Assembly: GCA_903889915.1 (NCBI GenBank)
Contig: CAISZK010000093.1
Coordinates: 1 to 35,314, forward strand
Length of the DNA stretch: 35,314 bases
Direction: 5' to 3'
DNA from: an uncultured Bacteroidota bacterium
Lineage (GTDB): Bacteria; Bacteroidota; Bacteroidia; Bacteroidales; CG2-30-32-10
The notes beneath the pieces are model-generated. The model was not told where the DNA came from. It worked only from the letters and a program-made list of their open reading frames with translations, and did not search any database. The translations under genes and the position numbers were made by a program. Position 1 is the first letter of the stretch. Each line of letters begins with the position of its first letter. Positions 16,688 to 34,702 of the stretch are shown in pieces.

Positions 16688-19600
16688 TTATGGCGTTATT
16701 GAATAAACTCCCAGCAGATAATTATCATACTGAAGGTACACATCATCAATATCAACCATGCCATCACCATTGAGATCAGAAACTTTATAACCAAGGTCAC
16801 CATTCAGATATGAGCTGTAGATGTAATATTCATCATCAATGTCAATAATTCCATCCTGCACCGAAGCCGAAGGATATGCATAAGCAGATCCGTTTTGACT
16901 GACATCACCGCAATAAATACCATAGACACCACTTCCGATTTGTTTCAAATTATTCCCGTATGCTTTCGAGACATTGTCTGAAAAATTGTATGTAATGACT
17001 GCGCCGGCAAAAGAAACAGGCAAACTGCTTACGGTTAAAAGATGATTGCGATGCTTTATGGTTATGTAATAATGTCCATTCAAAGCAGGAGGAATGCTCA
17101 CATTTGCATGTCCTGACGTATCCAGAATAACACCATGTATCCTGCAGAGGACATTGGCATACGTTGTCGAATCATGCAATTCAATTCCAAAAGTATCAAC
17201 AATATTTGAACCGAAATTTGGAATGAAACTGCTGTTCAATGTGCGGTTCATGTGACCATGAGAATTATAAAATCCTTCAAAAAACACTGTCAGGTCAAGA
17301 GTTTTGGCAGAATTGATTATTGTCAAAACCTGTGTAGCATTGTCTGAGCATGTCCCGTTATTATAACTGTATTTCACCGTTACTGTTCCTGCTGACAGCC
17401 CTGTTACCACACCTCCGGAATTCACACTTGCTGTGCCGGTACCGGGTACTATTGACCATGTTCCTCCTGTAGTTGCATCTGTAAATGCAGGAGTTGTTGC
17501 ATTCACCGCTACTGTTGAAGAACCACCACCAATAGCTGCTACATTTGGCAATGCATTTACCGTCAATGCCTGTGTTGAAGTGTTTGAGCAGGATCCATCA
17601 CTATATGTATAAACTACGGTTACAGTACCTGCAGAAATTCCTGTAACTACTCCTGCTGTGGTTATGCTTGCCGAGCCTGTACCGGCATTTATTGACCAGG
17701 TTCCGCCTGTTGTTGCATCAAGAAATGCAGGTGTGGCGGCATTCACACAAATATTGTTTGAACCACCTGTTATAGGAGCAACAAATGGTATAGCGATCAC
17801 TTTTAATGAAAACGAGACGCTATTCGAACATCCACCTGTGCCAATTGTATAAACTACAGAAACTACGCCCGGTGTCAATCCGGTAGCAACTCCATTGGTT
17901 GCAATGCTTGCGGTCCCTGTGATAGGCACAACAGACCAGACGCCACCTGTGGTGGCATCAGTAAATTGAGGGGTTGATGAATTTACACACACAGTTGCTG
18001 CTCCTCCACCAATAGCGTATAATGTCTGTAAAGCGTCAACAGACAATGGTTGTGTAACAGTATTTGAACATCCGCCTATGGTAACAGTATAAACAACCGT
18101 CACTGTGCCCAGTGATACTCCAGTTGCTACGCCACCTGTTGAGATACTTGCAGCACCGGTTCCGGCTGTTATTGACCAAATACCACCGAAGGATGCATCA
18201 ATAAATGCTGGAGTTGTTGAACCGAGACAAACATCAGAAGCGCCACCTGAAATTGGATTGATCGCTGGCAATGCATTAATGATTAAAGATTGCGTTGAGG
18301 TAGTTGAACAAGTTCCGTTATTATAAGTATAAACTACAGTCACATTTCCTGCCGTTAATCCTGTTACAATTCCACTTGCTGTGATGCTTGCTGTGCCAGT
18401 GCCTGCAGTTATTGACCATACACCTCCTGATGTTGCATCAGTAAATGCAGGCGTCATCGTATTGACACAAACAGAAATTGCACCACCAGCTATCGGAGCA
18501 ACAACAGGAAGTGCATTCACTGTTAAAGATTGTGTTGAAGTATTTGAACAAGTTCCGTTATTATAAGTATAAACTACAGTCACATTTCCTGCCGTTAATC
18601 CTGTTACAATTCCACTTGCTGTGATGCTTGCTGTGCCTGTACCAGCAGTTATTGACCATATTCCACCCAATGTTGCATCAGTAAATGGAGGAGTTGTCGC
18701 ATTGACACAAACCGAAGTTGCACCGCCTGCTATTGGAGCAACTACAGGAAGTGTATTTACCGTCAAAGATTGTGTTGAAGTATTTGAACAAGTTCCGTTA
18801 TTATAAGTATAAACTACAATCACATTTCCTGCCGTTAATCCTGTTACAATTCCACTTGCTGTTATACTTGCCGTGCCAGTGCCTGCAGTTATTGACCATA
18901 CACCTCCTGATGTTGCATCAGTAAAAGCGGGCGTTGTTGCATTGACACAAACAGAAGTTGCACCACCAGCTATCGGAGCGACAACAGGAAGTGCATTAAC
19001 AGTTAAAGATTGCGTTGAAGTGTTTGAACAAGTTCCGTTATTATAAGTGTAAACTACAGTCACATTTCCCGCTGTTAGTCCCGTTACAATTCCACTAGCA
19101 GTTATGCTTGCTGTGCCTGTACCAGCAATTATTGACCACATTCCACCCAACGTTGCATCGGTGAATGCAGGAGTTGTGGCATTGACACAAACCGAAGCTG
19201 CCCCGCCAGCAATTGGAGCGACAACAGGAAGTGCATTCACTGTCAAAGATTGCGTGGAAGTATTTGAACAAGTTCCGTTATTATAAGTATAAACTACTGT
19301 CACACTACCTGCTGTTAATCCTGTTACAATTCCACTTGCTGTTATGCTTGCTGTGCCAGTGCCAGAAATTATAGACCACACTCCACCCATTGTTGCATCA
19401 GTAAATGCAGGCGTCGTCGCATTGACACAAACAGAAGTTGCACCACCAGCTATCGGAGCGACAATAGGCAATGCATTAATGATTAAAGATTGCGTTGAGA
19501 TATTTGAACAAGTTCCATTGTTATAAGTGCAAACAACAGTCACGTTGCCGGCTGTTAATCCAGTTACAATTCCACTTGCGGTAATACTTGCAGTACCTGT

Positions 19601-22600
19601 GCCAGATGTTATGGACCATACTCCTCCAGATGTTGCATCAGTAAATGCAGGCGTCGTCGCATTGACACAAACAGAAGTTGCACCACCAGCTATCGGAGCG
19701 ACAATAGGCAATGCATTGATGATTAAAGATTGCGTTGAGATATTTGAACAAGTTCCATTGTTATAAGTGTAAACAACAGTCACGTTGCCGGCTGTTAATC
19801 CAGTTACAATTCCACTAGCTGTAATACTTGCAGTACCTGTGCCAGATGTTATGGACCATACTCCTCCAGATGTTGCATCAGTAAATGCGGGAGTTGTGGC
19901 ATTGACACAAACAGAAGTTGCACCACCAGCTATCGGAGCGACTAAAGGAAGGGGATTAACTATTAAAGATTGTGATGTTGAATCTGAACATCCTCCATTG
20001 ATCACAGTATAAACTACCGTTACAGTTCCAGCCGTTAAACCTGTCACTATTCCTCCCGATGTGATGCTTGCAGTGCCCGTACCCTGAGTAATTGACCATG
20101 TTCCACCTGAAGTAGCATCTGTGAAGGCCGGTGTTGTAGAATTAATACATACTGAAGAAGCACCATTTGCTATCGGAGATATAGAAAGTGTGGTATTAAC
20201 TGTTACAACACGGGTAACAAAATTTGTACAATTTCCATCATTATAAGTGTAAACCAAAGTAATTGTTCCTGCTGTTAAACCAGTCACTAAACCACCTGCT
20301 GTTACGCTTGCTATACCGGTACCAGCCGTAATTGACCATGTACCACCGATGGTCGCATCAGTAAATGCAGGTGTTGTTCCATTTACACACACTGAAGAAG
20401 CACCACCGGCAATAGGAGCTATTGTTGGCAGATCATTCACAGTTAATAATTGTGTTGCCGAATTTGAACATCCTCCACTAAAAACCGTATAAATAATTGT
20501 AACAGTTCCGGGAGAAATTCCTGTCACGACACCTGCCGTTGTAATGTTTGCAGTACCTGTACCGGGAGTTATTGACCATGTTCCTCCTGAAGTGGCATCA
20601 GTAAATGCAGGTGTGCTCTCATTAATACAAACTGAAAGTGCTCCATCAGCAATTGCTGCAACATTCAACAAAGTATTTACAGTTAATATCTGGGTTGCAG
20701 TATTGCTACAGGTTCCGTCAGAATAGGAATACACAACAGTAACTGTACCGGTGGTCAGTCCAGTCACTACACCACTCGTCGTAATACTTGCCGTTCCTGT
20801 ACCGGGAGTTATTGACCACGTTCCTCCGACTGTTGCATCTGTAAAAGCCAGGGTAGTTGCATTCACGCATACAGTAGTAACGCCTCCCGAAACCGGGTTT
20901 ACCACCGGCAATGGATTTACTGTTAAAGTCTGTGTTGATGAATTGGTGCATCCACCGGTAACAACCGTATATACTACACTTACCGTTCCTGCAGACAATC
21001 CTGTTACTATGCCTCCTGTAGAAATGCTTGCTGTTCCTGATCCGGGAGTTATAGACCAGGTTCCTCCTGCCGTGGCATCAGTAAAAGCAGGTGTGTTTGC
21101 ATTCACACATACTGATGAGGCTCCGTCTGCTACTGGTGCTACTGTTACCGTTGCTATAGTAACCGATGGTGTTCCTCCGGCACCCAGATGCCCATTTACC
21201 TGAATGTAATAATTGACACCCGCCGTCAATGTCAGACAGGGCAATGCAGCGCCTGTACTTGAACCAACATTGCTGTATGAACCTGCCAATAAATTGGCAG
21301 CGGAAGTTGCAGAATAAACTCCAAGTTCAAAACTATTACCCGTAGTCGCGCTTATAGAATAGTTCCCGGAAACCGATGGTGTGAACAAAAACCATTCAGT
21401 ATTGGCAAGGGTTGCAGGATTTGAATCGGGGTCAAAGTTCCAGTTTGGTCCGCTTGGCTCACCCACTTCCATTCCGTAATTAGCAAATGAAACTCCCGGC
21501 GAATTTGTTCCGACACTCGCAATATATGCATTGGCTACGTTATCGTAAGTCCCCGGCGTGTATCCTGTGTTATTTACAGCCACTGTAAATGTACCTTCTG
21601 AACTTAATCCTGAATTATAGGAAAACACCCTGATTCCATAACTGGCTCCATTTGTAAGGTTACTTACTTTTATACTTTCCGCAGAACCGGTACCAACGAA
21701 ATCATGATCTACTATTTTTGTGCCGTTGCATATTGTTTTTCTCAATTGCAACACACCATCAATACCCGAACAATTCAAAATTATCTGAGCATTGTTACCC
21801 GAAGCAGTGAAATTATACCAGACATCGTCATCGTCATAGCCTGTGGAATAATAATCACTCAGAGATTGCGAAGCATCCACCGTGGTTCCACTTGTTGCGG
21901 CTGCTCCAAGTGTAAGTGTGGTACCTGAACAATCATCATTTACGGGTGGAATAACTACACAAATGGTAAAGGTTGTATTGCCCGGTATGGTTGATGAACT
22001 GTGATAAACGCGAACATAATAAGTAGTGCTGCCTGTTAAACCTGTCAGATGCAGGGTTTCTGTTCCACCATAAAAATACTGACGACATCCGATACTTGTC
22101 AACGATCCACACGCACCAGAGTATGCCTGTATTACGGCATCATAAGATCCGTTACTTACGACAATCACATTCGCGCTTGTCCCGCCCGCATTCGTGGTGA
22201 ACATATACCAGACATCACGGGCCACAGAGGCATTATCACAAGCGGAGTGAGCATAAGTTTGTGTTGCAAGTGCAGCATCACCTGCAACAGCGTTGCAGGT
22301 TGTGGTAATAGTACCAAGGTCAACAGCTCCGCAAGGTTCATCATTTGCAGGCGGTTTAATTACACAAATAGTAAAGGAAGTTGTAGTATTGGTTGAGTAA
22401 TAATTTGAAGCATACACTCTGACATAGTATGTCGAAGCTACAGTCAATCCTGTTAATTGAAGACTTGCGAGGCTACCTGTTGATGAAGCCGAATAGCATC
22501 CTATTGATGTAAGTGTTCCGCTGCAGGAGGTTCCGGAATAAGCCTGAACAACCGCCTGGAAATCGGCGCTACCCTGAACATTTATCAGATGAGAAGTATT

Positions 22601-25600
22601 TGTGGCAACAAAAGAATACCAAACATCATTGGAAGATGAAGTATAGTTGTAATCACAGCTACCATAAGGCTTGGTCTGTGATGCAAGATTTACATCTCCA
22701 GTTGTTGGTGAACAGGTAACTCCGGGTGTTAAAGGAACAGCGCCACATGGCTCATCATTTGCAGGAGCAGTGAGTATGCAAACGGTGAAGGTTGTTGTTG
22801 CAGGAATACTTGAGGATGCATGATAAACTCTGAAACGATAAGTGTTCCCAACTGTAAGTCCCGACAAAGTTAAAGATGCCGTTCCACCGGTTGATGAAGC
22901 ATAAGCACATCCAATGGCAGTCCCCGGTGATGCACAGGTACCGGCGAAGGCCTGCACAACCGCAGAATAAGATGAACTTCCAACGATGTTTATCTGATGA
23001 CTTGTTGCTGTTGCCACAAATGAAAACCATACATCGCGTGTATTGCTGGTATAATTGTAATCACAACTTGCGTATGAACCTGGTGCAGGACTTTGCGATG
23101 CAAGATTAGAACTGTATGCAGGAGGACTTGAACAGGCAGCAGTTCCGGGCGTATTAGGAGTTATTGAAATTGCTCCTGAGCACTCATCATTTGTCGGCGC
23201 TGTAAGTATGCAAACGGTGAATGTTGTCGTTGCAGGCACACTCGATGATTCATGATAAACCCTGAAATAATATATATGCCCTACTGTCAGCCCCGTCAAT
23301 GTTGCAGATGCTGTTCCTCCTGTTGAAGAAGCATAAGCGCAGCCTATAGCAGTTCCAAGTGAACCGCAGGCACCAGTGAATGCCTGTACGACCGGCTGAT
23401 AAGATGTACTTCCGGCTATGTTTATCTGATGACTGGTGGCTGTTGCAACAAAGCTAAACCACACATCACGGGTGGTACTTGTATAGTAATAATCACAAGA
23501 AGCATAAGTTCCGGGTGAAGCGCTTTCGGTAGCCAAATTTGCATCAAAGCTGGGTGGGATAGTACAAGCTGCTGCTCCTGGCGCTGCCGGTGTTATTGAT
23601 ACTGCGCCGGCACATTCATCATTTGCAGGTGCGCTTGTATATTTATATGCGAGTGTGTAGGTAATAGCAGCTGAGCTATAGCCAACCACCTTCAGATAAT
23701 AAACCCCAATTGATGGCGGCTGCCATGATGCATAAGACGACCCAATTGTTGAAGCATCATAACTACATCCCGAGAGTCCGTCAATATACCAAATATTGGT
23801 TCCTGAAGAATTGTACAAATACAAGTCTCCATCGCCAACCGGACAGGAGCCACCAACTCCATCATTGGCACAAATACTAAAATCATAACCATTCGATGTG
23901 ACCATATTGATCTTATAAATGCGGCACTCAGATGAAGCAAGTGCATTGGGGCCGTCTGTTTGCCAGGAAGTGGTTGGAGTAATTGTATAATCGAAGGTGG
24001 GCGGAGTATTGCAATGCGGAGGTGCTAAAGTTGTAATTGCTGATGAAGAACCGGGAGTTTTATAACAGGTGTTTGTGGAATTGTATTCATACACTGTGAA
24101 AGTGTAACCTGTACTTGCCACTAAATTTGTAACAGAAACCGTTGTGCCTGTTCCGGTATAAACGACATAATTGCCGGTACCCGTAACATCTCCTGAACCA
24201 AAAGTTGAACTTGCATTATACGTTATCCCACCTGACGGATCAACAGCGCTGGTTGATGTCAATCTGCCAACAACAATTACGCCGCCTGTTCCGTTTCCTC
24301 TTGCCCAGTTGACAGTTGTTCCAGTGGAAGTGGTAGAAGTATAAGCGCTCATCGTTGCCTGTGTTGTTGGCTGCGTGCATGCCAGTGTAGTGACAGTAGA
24401 TGATGAACCGGGAATATCATAACAGTATGTTGAATTATTATACTCGTACACAGTGAAAGTATAGCCCGTGCTTGATGCCAGTCCGGATACAGTAACACTG
24501 GTGCCAGTGCCATTGTAAACGATATAATTTCCTGTTCCCGTACTGTATCCTGTTGTATTGTTTCCAAAAGTTGAACTGGAATAATAGTAAGTTCCCTGAA
24601 CCGGATCAACCGCTGTTGTTGAAGTCAACCTTCCAACGACGATCACATCATCTCCATTTCCTCTTGTCCAATGCACCGTTGTGCTGCTGGCGGTGGTGGC
24701 AGTGTAGGCAGTTATTGTTGCCTGTGTTGTTGGCTGTACACAGGGCGAGTTGCAGACACAAAGTGTGAATGCTCCTGCCGTTCCAGTTATAGCAAGACTG
24801 CTGTAGGAATATACACGGATATAATAAGTACTGCCAATAGTCAATCCTGTCCATGCCTGGTTTGCCGGATCAGTGTCATAACATCCTGCACTCACCTGCG
24901 AGCCACAAGCCCCAGTGAAAAACTGAGTGACAAGATCACTTCCTCCTGTGTTTCCCAAAGAAATATATTCTGTAGTCGCAGCGGCAACGAACTTAAACCA
25001 TACATCATCATCAGCCGTACCGGTACATCCGCTGATACCTGAGTTTGTAGCTCCCGAAACAGTGCTGCTCACCTGCGAACCTGCGGTGCAGGTATTGGCA
25101 GGTGTGATCACAGTTGCATTGGCGCAATTATCATTTGCCGGTGCCTGCGTTAATCCTGTAAAATCATTTCCGCCCAAAGGATTGGCAGCATAGGTTGTTG
25201 AAGTAACTGATAAAGTCGGTGCACTCATTGTTCCCGGTAAAATATTCCACGCACTTCCGTTCCATCGGTTAGGAACAATTGAACTTACAGTTCCAACAAC
25301 ATCTTCCGAACTGTTGATGAATTTGAAATCTGCCGTGTAAGTATAAGCTGCAGTTTGGTTATCGGTGAACTGCCAGTAACGGGTAAGATAATTTGCAGCC
25401 GTCCCCCCTGTATTGATATTGGGATGTGCCGCATCAACAACTCTTGTGGCAATCACTCTTGAAGAAGTACCCGATGCTCCGGAAAAGTACAGATCAACCG
25501 GAGAATATTGACTTGTTCCGACATTGTCACCAACAGGATAAATAAAATCAGTGTAAATAGTATTGCCTACTGTAAACCCAAAATAACCCGAAGTTCCTGA

Positions 25601-26917
25601 TGTAACATACATCATCGTGTTGCTATACGATGAGCTTGCCGTAGGGCTTATGTATAATGTTGTAAAATTTCCTGTTCCCAAAACAACCAATCCGCTGGTT
25701 AAAGTTGCAGTATTTGAAACGGTAATATTTTGTGCATTTAAAGTAAGTGAGCCGCCGCTTCCCATTGCTGAAGTAAAGTTGCTTAAAATCGGATCAGAGG
25801 TAAAAGTACTTGCAGGAATTGCCCAGTTTGCCGCTGATGTGGGGCTAAAGCTTAATGCAGGTGTTGATGTACATGTAATAGTCCCGGTAGTTCTTACAAT
25901 CGGTGCTACAGAACCGTCACCATTAAAAGTAAGAACATTGCCTGATCCGCTAAGGGTTAAAACACCTGCAGTCAATGTCAGCGTTCCCTTTATCTGACGA
26001 CCTGAAGTGGATGTTATTGTTACGCCATTCGGTGAATTTATGGTCACATTGGTTGGTCCATTTGTACCTGTTGGCCACACAACAGAATTCTCAGGAATAG
26101 CTGTGCAGTTAAGATAGATCAGGGTCGAACCTGCTGCATAAACAGGTGATGAACCGCTGGCAGATATAGCCGTTGATCCAGTACTGTTGATGGAGAGAGT
26201 GCCAGCCATCGCAATAGCGCTGAGTGTAACAGTATTTGTTGAAGTGATATTTAACACACCACCTGTTTGAACACTCATTAATGGGATAGTTGCAAGTGTA
26301 GCGCCGCAGGCATAATTAATAATGCCACCATTGGGTACAACCATTCGTGTTGTAGCGCCGGTGACTATAGGAGTTGTTGCCGCAGAGGTTGTGGTAATAG
26401 ATCCATTCACTGTAAAAATGCCGCCACTACCAATGGTCAATGTGGAAGCGCTGCTGATGGTTAAGGTTTTTCCGCTGGCAATATTGCTTCCAGTTCCACT
26501 AGAGTTGATACTAATTACACCTGTTGTTACATTGACTGATGAAATAAAATTCGAAGTGATGGTCAATGTGCTTGCACCGCTTGACCAGGTAACGCTGCCT
26601 GTGGTTCCTGATATTGTGAGGGAATTAATCGTGTAGGACGACATGCCGGTGAATGTCATCACGCTGGTGCCTGCGCTGATAGTTACATCATCCGTTGTAT
26701 GACCTGAAGAACCCGGATAGGCGCCAAGACTCCAGTTTGTAGTGGTTGTCCAGGCTCCTCCTCCTGCAGCTCCTATCCAGTTATTTGTCGCTGCCCTGCT
26801 TTGAAAAGCGCCAAAAATAACCAGCAAAAAAGCAAGAAAAATTGTCTTCAAAGCATTATACTTCGCAGCACTGTTGCAGGAATGACACCTGTTTTTCGAT
26901 TGTGTAAACACCACCAT
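16688..26917 (-). CDS. Giant repetitive secreted adhesin-like protein (3409 aa)
   Basis: Signal peptide (1-43, LAFLLVIFGAFQSRA). Residues ~44-590 are a low-complexity Thr/Ser/Gly beta region starting NNWIGAAGGGAW. A PPC-like domain follows (~592-722: NDNCANATVI..DDVWFKF..YYIRVYSYS), then two Fn3-like repeats (~727-965, TVYEYNN). About seven more PPC-like domains follow (~970-1920), several starting NDECxGA with DVWFSFVATATSHQI. Sixteen Ig-like repeats of exactly 80 residues come next (~1926-3205), then a beta module with AYGNNLKQIG. The dockerin-like Ca-binding end has DLNGDGMVDIDDV. Such proteins act outside the cell in adhesion or matrix; no enzyme domain was seen. No standard T9SS type A tail follows the dockerin-like end, so the export route is uncertain. 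It ends with TAA. Confidence 0.9.
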   Translation of the reverse strand: MVVFTQSKNRCHSCNSAAKYNALKTIFLAFLLVIFGAFQSRAATNNWIGAAGGGAWTTTTNWSLGAYPGSSGHTTDDVTISAGTSVMTFTGMSSYTINSLTISGTTGSVTWSSGASTLTITSNFISSVNVTTGVISINSSGTGSNIASGKTLTISSASTLTIGSGGIFTVNGSITTTSAATTPIVTGATTRMVVPNGGIINYACGATLATIPLMSVQTGGVLNITSTNTVTLSAIAMAGTLSINSTGSTAISASGSSPVYAAGSTLIYLNCTAIPENSVVWPTGTNGPTNVTINSPNGVTITSTSGRQIKGTLTLTAGVLTLSGSGNVLTFNGDGSVAPIVRTTGTITCTSTPALSFSPTSAANWAIPASTFTSDPILSNFTSAMGSGGSLTLNAQNITVSNTATLTSGLVVLGTGNFTTLYISPTASSSYSNTMMYVTSGTSGYFGFTVGNTIYTDFIYPVGDNVGTSQYSPVDLYFSGASGTSSRVIATRVVDAAHPNINTGGTAANYLTRYWQFTDNQTAAYTYTADFKFINSSEDVVGTVSSIVPNRWNGSAWNILPGTMSAPTLSVTSTTYAANPLGGNDFTGLTQAPANDNCANATVITPANTCTAGSQVSSTVSGATNSGISGCTGTADDDVWFKFVAAATTEYISLGNTGGSDLVTQFFTGACGSQVSAGCYDTDPANQAWTGLTIGSTYYIRVYSYSSLAITGTAGAFTLCVCNSPCVQPTTQATITAYTATTASSTTVHWTRGNGDDVIVVGRLTSTTAVDPVQGTYYYSSSTFGNNTTGYSTGTGNYIVYNGTGTSVTVSGLASSTGYTFTVYEYNNSTYCYDIPGSSSTVTTLACTQPTTQATMSAYTSTTSTGTTVNWARGNGTGGVIVVGRLTSTSAVDPSGGITYNASSTFGSGDVTGTGNYVVYTGTGTTVSVTNLVASTGYTFTVYEYNSTNTCYKTPGSSSAITTLAPPHCNTPPTFDYTITPTTSWQTDGPNALASSECRIYKINMVTSNGYDFSICANDGVGGSCPVGDGDLYLYNSSGTNIWYIDGLSGCSYDASTIGSSYASWQPPSIGVYYLKVVGYSSAAITYTLAYKYTSAPANDECAGAVSITPAAPGAAACTIPPSFDANLATESASPGTYASCDYYYTSTTRDVWFSFVATATSHQINIAGSTSYQPVVQAFTGACGSLGTAIGCAYASSTGGTASATLTGLTVGHIYYFRVYHESSSVPATTTFTVCILTAPTNDECSGAISITPNTPGTAACSSPPAYSSNLASQSPAPGSYASCDYNYTSNTRDVWFSFVATATSHQINIVGSSSYSAVVQAFAGTCASPGTAIGCAYASSTGGTASLTLSGLTVGNTYRFRVYHASSSIPATTTFTVCILTAPANDEPCGAVPLTPGVTCSPTTGDVNLASQTKPYGSCDYNYTSSSNDVWYSFVATNTSHLINVQGSADFQAVVQAYSGTSCSGTLTSIGCYSASSTGSLASLQLTGLTVASTYYVRVYASNYYSTNTTTSFTICVIKPPANDEPCGAVDLGTITTTCNAVAGDAALATQTYAHSACDNASVARDVWYMFTTNAGGTSANVIVVSNGSYDAVIQAYSGACGSLTSIGCRQYFYGGTETLHLTGLTGSTTYYVRVYHSSSTIPGNTTFTICVVIPPVNDDCSGTTLTLGAAATSGTTVDASQSLSDYYSTGYDDDDVWYNFTASGNNAQIILNCSGIDGVLQLRKTICNGTKIVDHDFVGTGSAESIKVSNLTNGASYGIRVFSYNSGLSSEGTFTVAVNNTGYTPGTYDNVANAYIASVGTNSPGVSFANYGMEVGEPSGPNWNFDPDSNPATLANTEWFLFTPSVSGNYSISATTGNSFELGVYSATSAANLLAGSYSNVGSSTGAALPCLTLTAGVNYYIQVNGHLGAGGTPSVTIATVTVAPVADGASSVCVNANTPAFTDATAGGTWSITPGSGTASISTGGIVTGLSAGTVSVVYTVVTGGCTNSSTQTLTVNPLPVVNPVSGGVTTVCVNATTLAFTDATVGGTWSITPGTGTASITTSGVVTGLTTGTVTVVYSYSDGTCSNTATQILTVNTLLNVAAIADGALSVCINESTPAFTDATSGGTWSITPGTGTANITTAGVVTGISPGTVTIIYTVFSGGCSNSATQLLTVNDLPTIAPIAGGASSVCVNGTTPAFTDATIGGTWSITAGTGIASVTAGGLVTGLTAGTITLVYTYNDGNCTNFVTRVVTVNTTLSISPIANGASSVCINSTTPAFTDATSGGTWSITQGTGTASITSGGIVTGLTAGTVTVVYTVINGGCSDSTSQSLIVNPLPLVAPIAGGATSVCVNATTPAFTDATSGGVWSITSGTGTASITASGIVTGLTAGNVTVVYTYNNGTCSNISTQSLIINALPIVAPIAGGATSVCVNATTPAFTDATSGGVWSITSGTGTASITASGIVTGLTAGNVTVVCTYNNGTCSNISTQSLIINALPIVAPIAGGATSVCVNATTPAFTDATMGGVWSIISGTGTASITASGIVTGLTAGSVTVVYTYNNGTCSNTSTQSLTVNALPVVAPIAGGAASVCVNATTPAFTDATLGGMWSIIAGTGTASITASGIVTGLTAGNVTVVYTYNNGTCSNTSTQSLTVNALPVVAPIAGGATSVCVNATTPAFTDATSGGVWSITAGTGTASITASGIVTGLTAGNVIVVYTYNNGTCSNTSTQSLTVNTLPVVAPIAGGATSVCVNATTPPFTDATLGGIWSITAGTGTASITASGIVTGLTAGNVTVVYTYNNGTCSNTSTQSLTVNALPVVAPIAGGAISVCVNTMTPAFTDATSGGVWSITAGTGTASITASGIVTGLTAGNVTVVYTYNNGTCSTTSTQSLIINALPAINPISGGASDVCLGSTTPAFIDASFGGIWSITAGTGAASISTGGVATGVSLGTVTVVYTVTIGGCSNTVTQPLSVDALQTLYAIGGGAATVCVNSSTPQFTDATTGGVWSVVPITGTASIATNGVATGLTPGVVSVVYTIGTGGCSNSVSFSLKVIAIPFVAPITGGSNNICVNAATPAFLDATTGGTWSINAGTGSASITTAGVVTGISAGTVTVVYTYSDGSCSNTSTQALTVNALPNVAAIGGGSSTVAVNATTPAFTDATTGGTWSIVPGTGTASVNSGGVVTGLSAGTVTVKYSYNNGTCSDNATQVLTIINSAKTLDLTVFFEGFYNSHGHMNRTLNSSFIPNFGSNIVDTFGIELHDSTTYANVLCRIHGVILDTSGHANVSIPPALNGHYYITIKHRNHLLTVSSLPVSFAGAVITYNFSDNVSKAYGNNLKQIGSGVYGIYCGDVSQNGSAYAYPSASVQDGIIDIDDEYYIYSSYLNGDLGYKVSDLNGDGMVDIDDVYLQYDNYLLGVYSITP
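17303..21142 (-). repeat. 16 x 240-bp coding tandem repeat array
   Basis: Sixteen units of 240 bp encode the Ig-like domains. The anchor word ATTGACCA (or a one- to two-base variant) occurs at 17451, 17691, 17931 and so on to 21051, always exactly 240 bp apart, so there is no insertion or deletion in 3.8 kb. The seven central units (about 18263-19942) are nearly identical; outer units are diverged. Most units hold two cysteines (SVCVN and GTCSN), probably one disulfide per domain. Confidence 0.95.
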
Positions 26918-32977: not shown

Positions 32978-33214
32978 ATGGAAAAACAGGAAATGAAAGA
33001 ATACGTCGAACTTTTTGGCGAGGAAAAAATTTTGAAAGCTCTCGAAATCTCTGAAAAATACGGAAATAAGAGGTTTTCCTTTTCAAAACTTGTAAAGTAT
33101 ATCAAGGCGGAAAAAATCAAAAAGGCTGTGGTTGAAAATAAATCCACGGCGTATATTACCCGTAATTTTAAGGTAAACAGGATGGTTGTATGCCGTTTGA
33201 AAAAGGAAGAATAA
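32978..33214 (+). CDS. Small helix-turn-helix protein (Mor/resolvase-HTH-like)
   Basis: A 78-residue basic helical protein. The N-terminal half (MEKQEMKEYVELFGEEKILKALEISEKYG) is helical. The C-terminal part, KKAVVENKSTAYITRNFKVNRMVVCRLKKEE, has a helix-turn-helix pattern (KSTAYITRNFKVNRMVVCR). A longer open frame on the opposite strand (32740-33300) overlaps but looks like a shadow. Its neighbour, a 256-residue unknown protein, starts 106 nt downstream, after a dyad that overlaps a promoter element. The protein may regulate that promoter (inference). Confidence 0.6.
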   Translation: MEKQEMKEYVELFGEEKILKALEISEKYGNKRFSFSKLVKYIKAEKIKKAVVENKSTAYITRNFKVNRMVVCRLKKEE

Positions 33215-34118: not shown

Positions 34119-34170
34119 ACATTATTCCACCGAAGTACGAACAAAAATACGTACTTCGATGAAATAATGT
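34119..34170. repeat. Long near-perfect hairpin downstream of the 256-aa gene
   Basis: Arms 34119-34139 and 34150-34170 pair over 21 bp with two C/T differences that become G-U pairs in one strand; the core is CGAAGTACG/CGTACTTCG. The loop is AACAAAAATA. It lies 28 nt after the stop codon. No T run follows, so it may be an mRNA end-stabiliser, a processed structure or a small mobile element rather than a plain terminator. Confidence 0.7.
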
Positions 34171-34390
34171 GGGGAAGTTATTTTAAAAGCTACCAAAACT
34201 GACAAATTTTCCGGCCCGGCTGCCTTCAATCATCAGAAAAAGCCATTCAATTGCAATTGTAGCAACGCCTTTTGTTAAAAAAACAGCAGGTTTTGCAACT
34301 TACTGAGCTTTTCTCGCCATCGAAGTTGCAATATATACTGAAATTGATCAAACAATCATGATTATCGTGCCTTAAAATGTCATTGGTGAT
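34171..34390. other. Intergenic stretch, nothing recognised
   Basis: Noncoding DNA between the hairpin and the 21-bp array. A 12-bp palindrome CAATTGCAATTG near 34248 is the only structure noticed. Confidence 0.4.
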
Positions 34391-34702
34391 GCAACTCTCA
34401 CGGTTGGTAATGCTTCAATCACGGTTGAAGCATCACGAATTATGGTTGGAGCATTACCAACCGTGATTGGAGCATCACGAATCATGGTTGGAGCATCACG
34501 AACCATGGTTGGAGCATCACGAACCATGGTTGGAGCATTACGAATCATGGTTGGAGCATCACGAACCATGGTTGGAGCATTACGAATCATGATTGGAGCA
34601 TTACGAACCATGGTTGGAGCACTACCAACCGTGATTGAAGTAACGTCAATCACAATTCGAGCATCACCAATCACAGTTCGGGCATCACCAATTGCAATAA
34701 AT
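34391..34702. repeat. 21-bp tandem array with palindromic cores
   Basis: About 15 head-to-tail units, nearly all exactly 21 bp (one of 18 bp at 34412-34429). A consensus unit begins GCATCACG, continues through the core AACCATGGTT, and closes with GGA. The best-preserved units lie at 34472-34618; the ends are degenerate. The cores AACCATGGTT and AATCATGATT are perfect palindromes; mixed cores (AATCATGGTT, AACCGTGATT) are near-palindromes. Because 21 is divisible by 3, both strands stay open and give spurious ORFs encoding 7-residue repeats. Confidence 0.9.

Follow-up and report, generated by a model that had tools for sequence, protein, structure and literature searches.

The window analyzed here, a stretch of 35,314 nucleotides from an uncultured Bacteroidota bacterium, carries close to its 3′ end a regular array of short tandem units, and the question that this locus raises is what such an array does and what keeps its period. 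A sequence-only reading had proposed about 15 units of 21 bp with palindromic cores. The array itself was borne out, its earlier coordinates being correct to about 10 bp: positions 34383–34697 consist of 15 head-to-tail 21-bp units without indels (consensus TTGGAGCATYACGAAYCATGG, no strand assigned; TRF score 300–333 and unit-by-unit read-out). At lag 42, its autocorrelation reaches z = 18–19, whereas none of 72 control windows exceeds 5.0. As that reading had also concluded, the absence of spacers between the head-to-tail units led to the rejection of a CRISPR, and no cas domains were found among the window neighbor genes looked up. Likewise, the window and nine further loci gave no match in Rfam.

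The palindromic cores are present in only part of the array. By hand count, the 10-mer palindrome is perfect in five of the 15 units (AACCATGGTT four times, for example at 34501–34510, without assigned strand, and AATCATGATT once) and near-perfect in three, which pair at four of five positions, whereas the remaining units pair poorly, at two to three of five positions or fewer. The most degenerate units are the first ones (34383–34424) and the last three. Overall, the palindrome excess of this array has a p-value of 0.018 relative to column permutation. The related proposal that changes within units preserve symmetry did not hold, since 61 complementary pairs within units were observed for 61.3 expected under shuffling between units. 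As for similar arrays genome-wide, period 20–22 arrays recur, but the unit sequence of the window has no further match in the 5.55-Mb genome, even with up to three mismatches allowed, which indicates that it is not a scattered operator. Elsewhere in the window, a perfect heptamer array (TCCAATT, four copies; seven being one third of 21) is located at 247–276, and a 3409-aa ORF (16688–26917, minus strand) includes a 240-bp (80-aa) repeat present about nine times at 18272–20419.

The partner of the array had been sought in a neighboring HTH protein. Relatives of this ORF (32978–33211) are absent from the other loci, and it does not match any Pfam family. The partner which travels with the array is instead the 256-aa gene P0001 (33320–34090, plus strand), supported by its translation, its homologs and the purifying selection acting on its relatives, and ending 292 bp upstream of the array. 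P0001 has no match in Pfam, NCBIfam or PADLOC, including the 23S IVP four-helix bundle families (PF05635, TIGR02436). Its structure model is confident only at residues ~20–115, predicted to form a helical N-terminal domain, and the fold of its C-terminal half is uncertain. Compared with solved structures, the helical domain retrieved only low-Z unrelated bundles (best Z 7.1), within helical-bundle noise. Between the P0001 stop codon and the array, a strong terminator-like hairpin without clear T-run was identified (34119–34170, plus strand; score 39 for a shuffled maximum of 26).

A search with P0001, based on protein sequence only, retrieved two paralogs from the genome of the window and four further ones from a second genome. 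At each of these first seven loci, a 21-bp array follows the gene directly on its 3′ side, and the units are unrelated in sequence from one locus to another. A DNA match in another genome (G083, locus L003) was dismissed as fortuitous, the region being unrelated. The wider search reached Bacteroidota, Ignavibacteriae, Verrucomicrobia, Planctomycetes, Acidobacteria and one Methylococcaceae MAG, these names being taken from the records, in which MAG labels may be wrong. The family comprises proteins of ~200–260 aa, with two subfamilies of ~250 aa and of ~205 aa, the latter with a C-terminal FN3 domain. The FN3 domain is usually a protein-binding fold. Its assignment, which applies to the ~205-aa type only, is predicted from the AlphaFold model of the L043 protein, a helical N-terminal bundle followed by a clear FN3 domain (pLDDT 90) which superimposes on an integrin beta4 FN3 domain with a Z-score of 16.6 and an rmsd of 1.3 Å over 90 residues; the Pfam fn3 matches of this type (E 5e-5 to 0.017) do not reach the cut-off. 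No DNA-binding domain was recognized in the family, whose pI ranges from 5 to 10 with many members not basic, and no signal peptide was evident by eye. The genes are under purifying selection, with differences at the three codon positions of 6/9/38, 1/2/25 (L043/L044) and 22/21/63 in the compared pairs.

Is the array a constant companion of this gene? For the 39 family loci found by protein sequence alone, the strongest self-match at any lag of 8–45 was sought within the 900 bp flanking either side, the 72 control windows being drawn from the same loci. The best lag was 20, 21, 22 or 40–42 at 39 of 39 loci (z 4.4–20.6), and 37 exceeded the highest control value of 5.0, the exceptions being L038 (4.4) and L055 (5.0). 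The arrays contain about 9–30 tandem units of 20–22 bp. They lie downstream of the gene in 15/15 loci of the ~250-aa type and upstream in 24/24 of the ~205-aa type; near-duplicate loci (L043/L044 and L041/L054) make the number of independent cases somewhat lower than 39. Five further members found by profile in sampled DNA (L094, L114, L132, L146 and L147) also carry an array, and its side tracks protein length (downstream for at least 225 aa, upstream for ~205–208 aa), a rule which was noticed after the fact. No array was found for a truncated family copy (L024), nor within the available sequence of a borderline profile hit at a contig end (L145 10532–11233, E 0.003). Gene and array form one stand-alone cassette, in which the family gene is flanked by the array on a subfamily-specific side. 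A separate observation concerns the stretch from array to start codon at L037 (3860–3990), which is 90–98% identical between L037 and L040, above parts of the gene, and shows with L040 and L038 conserved inverted repeats (AGTAAACAAAGTGCACTTGTTTGCT).

What is conserved in these arrays is their period. Among the 90 TRF rows with at least five copies and a period of 15–30 in all DNA examined, where one array may count twice or more, 70 have a period of 21, nine of 20 and three of 22, all others accounting for eight. Periods other than 21 include 20 (L013, L042, L045 and L147), 20.5 (L049) and 22 (L050 and L051). These values bracket twice 10.5 bp, and since several are not divisible by three, the period is not a codon effect. 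At the family loci, the unit letters are private to each locus, and the period is kept across phyla. For instance, L030 and L031 encode proteins 85% identical and have unrelated arrays, the DNA homology covering the gene and ending where the array begins, and L031 and L032 share a downstream flank 89% identical with different arrays. Array pairs diverged by ~11–34% align with at most one gap per side, which is terminal, and the 21-bp register persists even in degenerate arrays with only about 50% identity between copies. The earlier idea that a 21-bp period places every core on the same helix face gains support from the TRF counts and from the recurrence of this period, with unrelated sequences, beside one protein family in several phyla.

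Taken over all arrays, palindromes within units are more frequent than under column permutation (Fisher p = 1e-5); individually, 9 of 36 arrays are palindromic (p < 0.05), and several are not palindromic at all. Folding is better than for column-permuted arrays on both strands (mean z of −1.79 sense and −1.37 antisense), as expected for inverted repeats functioning as DNA sites. Within-unit covariation was considered and rejected: a few arrays score high, which register-shifting indels can cause, and the overall p-value is 0.22. Symmetry therefore resides in the consensus, and the arrays show no trace of RNA pairing or of compensation from unit to unit.

The pitch locked at 20–22 bp with free sequence favors DNA geometry as the simplest explanation, and the reading that we tentatively prefer, at a little under an even chance, is that of a DNA platform of helically phased sites bound by a protein, with sequence turnover under a fixed pitch. 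The array would act as DNA, its units placing sites two helical turns apart on one helix face, and a protein would line up cooperatively on these sites to form a nucleoprotein patch. The binder would most simply be the protein encoded by the neighboring gene, possibly as a dimer at palindromic half-sites. With constraint on pitch and internal repetition only, letters could turn over quickly, and protein and array could co-evolve at each locus. Such a patch may serve in anchoring, marking, maintaining or spreading the cassette. Several points weigh against this mechanism: no recognized DNA-binding domain, the FN3 half, the many members which are not basic, and palindromy that is significant in only a quarter of the arrays. 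In addition, arrays also occur beside unrelated proteins, and many have only ordinary or housekeeping genes nearby, which weakens the case for one cognate binder per array. Finally, mutation proceeding in fixed steps of 21 bp would equally hold the pitch constant.

This last point underlies the main rival, which we consider unlikely: a functionless satellite that replication or repair in these genomes would generate in steps of roughly two helical turns, the genes merely marking prone sites or cassettes. It would account for the arbitrary unit sequences, for the arrays located beside housekeeping genes only, and for the very high number of arrays, which in sampled DNA of four Bacteroidota genomes amounts to 43 period 20–22 arrays per Mb in the genome of the window (0.67 of 5.55 Mb), 72 and 37 per Mb in two further family-carrying genomes and 19 per Mb in a relative of the same GTDB family. 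For Borgs, tandem repeats of ~20 nt have likewise been described as arising quickly and independently (PMC9879509). However, two control genomes from this order lack such arrays in the 0.2 Mb sampled from each. Moreover, the linkage to a gene family weighs against this rival, the array being on the side typical of the length class at all 39 family loci and the five found by profile. So do the register kept in half-identical copies and the nearly gap-free alignment of diverged pairs, as slippage products should alter copy number.

Less probable still is an array acting as RNA, in which a transcribed chain of small hairpins would bind or control the neighbor protein in the manner of type III toxin–antitoxin modules. 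The ~205-aa type does combine a small gene with an upstream tandem array, and the folding excess is slightly stronger on the sense strand (p = 0.04). Nevertheless, T.G and C.A mispairs over all arrays stand at 190:217, which leaves no mark of selection on a transcribed strand and no sense-strand excess of G.U-type pairs. In the other subfamily, the array lies downstream, often behind a terminator-like hairpin: hairpins comparable to that of the window were found in the gene–array interval at 7 of 14 loci tested of the ~250-aa subfamily, which places the array outside the gene's transcript and argues against a 3′ UTR role. In the upstream type, the interval from array to gene generally lacks a hairpin stronger than expected from shuffling. 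The family has no match to ToxN-, CptN- or TenpN-type toxins in Pfam, NCBIfam and PADLOC, and the narrow pitch of 20–22 is not expected of RNA hairpin chains.

It is slightly more doubtful that the whole unit is a mobile cassette with the array as its recombination or transposition site, a proposal compatible with the DNA platform. One genome contains two copies of a 1.5-kb unit of gene and array, which are 94% identical and lie in unrelated contexts (L043 3107–4615 and L044 3107–4615), adjoining a type IIG-like restriction-modification gene at one copy and a Cas9 gene at the other (both named by eye). Several dispersed copies exist per genome, and the neighbor genes of cassettes elsewhere are unrelated from locus to locus in the inspected sequences. 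Against mobility, inspection by eye revealed neither terminal repeats at the two ends of the 1.5-kb unit nor a recombinase next to the cassettes, and no relatives of the family protein were found on plasmids, phages or viral contigs. The conserved leader of the L043/L044 unit was also considered as a structured RNA and rejected, as its folding does not stand out (z −1.0) and the 175-bp piece at its start also recurs alone in the same genome (L067).

That the arrays encode seven-residue repeats, as 21 bp corresponding to seven codons and the ORFs of 116–120 aa spanning the window array on both strands could suggest, is very improbable and refuted for the family as a whole: besides the periods of 20, 20.5 and 22, the coding-type bias that was looked for is missing between the two 94%-identical copies L043 and L044, whose arrays differ by 12/11/14 over the three codon positions, for 1/2/25 in the gene, no frame is open in both members of L041/L054, and the open strand and frame differ from locus to locus.

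Among known systems, iterons and ParR-parC centromeres combine a small gene with tandem direct repeats, ~10, 11, 17 or 20 bp long and of a sequence private to each system. In ParR-parC, a cooperative DNA-binding adaptor recognizes arrays such as the 20-bp repeats of pSK41 parC, and repeats strongly differ between related systems (PMC9426499); the cassettes resemble them by architecture, with repeats next to the gene of a putative binder. In contrast, the cassettes are chromosomal, many per genome and without ParM or Rep partner, and no Rep initiator, ParM-like NTPase or ribbon-helix-helix adaptor domain was found in their conserved neighbor, a helical plus FN3 protein where the ParR-parC adaptor is ribbon-helix-helix. 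Their pitch is also narrowly 20–22 bp, whereas parC repeats vary. Type III toxin–antitoxin modules have repeat units of ~34–48 nt compared with 20–22 in the cassettes. In these modules (ToxIN, CptIN and TenpIN; PMC8860590), tandem repeats also adjoin a small protein gene, but the array is upstream with a terminator in between, whereas the cassettes show no toxin homology, have the array downstream at 15/39 loci and, when upstream, generally lack such a hairpin.

The Borg repeats are similar in being pervasive and fast-evolving, some with 20–21-nt units, with an independent origin at each site; they differ in being archaeal and extrachromosomal, with near-perfect units of varied lengths, about half within ORFs, and the passages considered mention no linked gene family (PMC9879509). 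TAACTGA heptamers form numerous sets of intergenic direct repeats in each genome, also in some Bacteroidetes, and were proposed as protein-binding sites (PMC4679880), but they have one fixed 7-bp sequence while the cassettes combine free sequence, fixed pitch and a linked gene family. A perfect heptamer array (AACCCAG, 16 copies) at L032 841–954 may be compared with them. REP palindromes are also short palindromic intergenic repeats (PMC3733652), but dispersed copies of few sequence families, whereas each cassette array has its own sequence, head to tail. No description of such gene-plus-array cassettes was found in the openly accessible literature that was searched.

Four more protein families recur beside arrays in the sampled DNA and co-occur in several of the same genomes: family II, helical with a carboxypeptidase-regulatory-like domain (L076, L107, L139 and L145), family III (L110 and L172), family IV (L138 and L140) and family V (L142 and L190). 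Their members were picked via their arrays and are not independent evidence of linkage. In the genome of the window, the same 20-bp array sequence is present at two loci (L105 1–195 and L108 6740–6988; CCTCAAGGTTGTCGCTCCTA and its complement). Beside the first, the gene at 392–964 encodes a 23S IVP-type four-helix bundle with a TIGR04258 suffix domain, the sole match to PF05635 and TIGR02436 (E 2.6e-5 and 4e-6). One genome also contains arrays of 43-bp units (L139 15074–15324, L143 1–186 and L129 7612–7827), which look like another repeat type.

A broader reading, of nearly the same probability, is that prokaryotes possess a large and so far overlooked class of cassettes, in which several unrelated families of small proteins are each paired with a private array of fixed two-turn pitch and free sequence. 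Such arrays would have expanded to hundreds per genome in some Bacteroidota and spread to other phyla, as the bacterial equivalent of satellite DNA, with a period that would be set by the protein structure assembled on it. If the scaling from the sample holds, about 240 arrays would be present in the genome of the window, of which they would be a major and unannotated component. A protein family tied, on a fixed side, to DNA conserved in period and free in sequence represents a rare kind of constraint, which directs attention to the geometry of DNA, or to a fixed-step copying mechanism, as what is selected or built.
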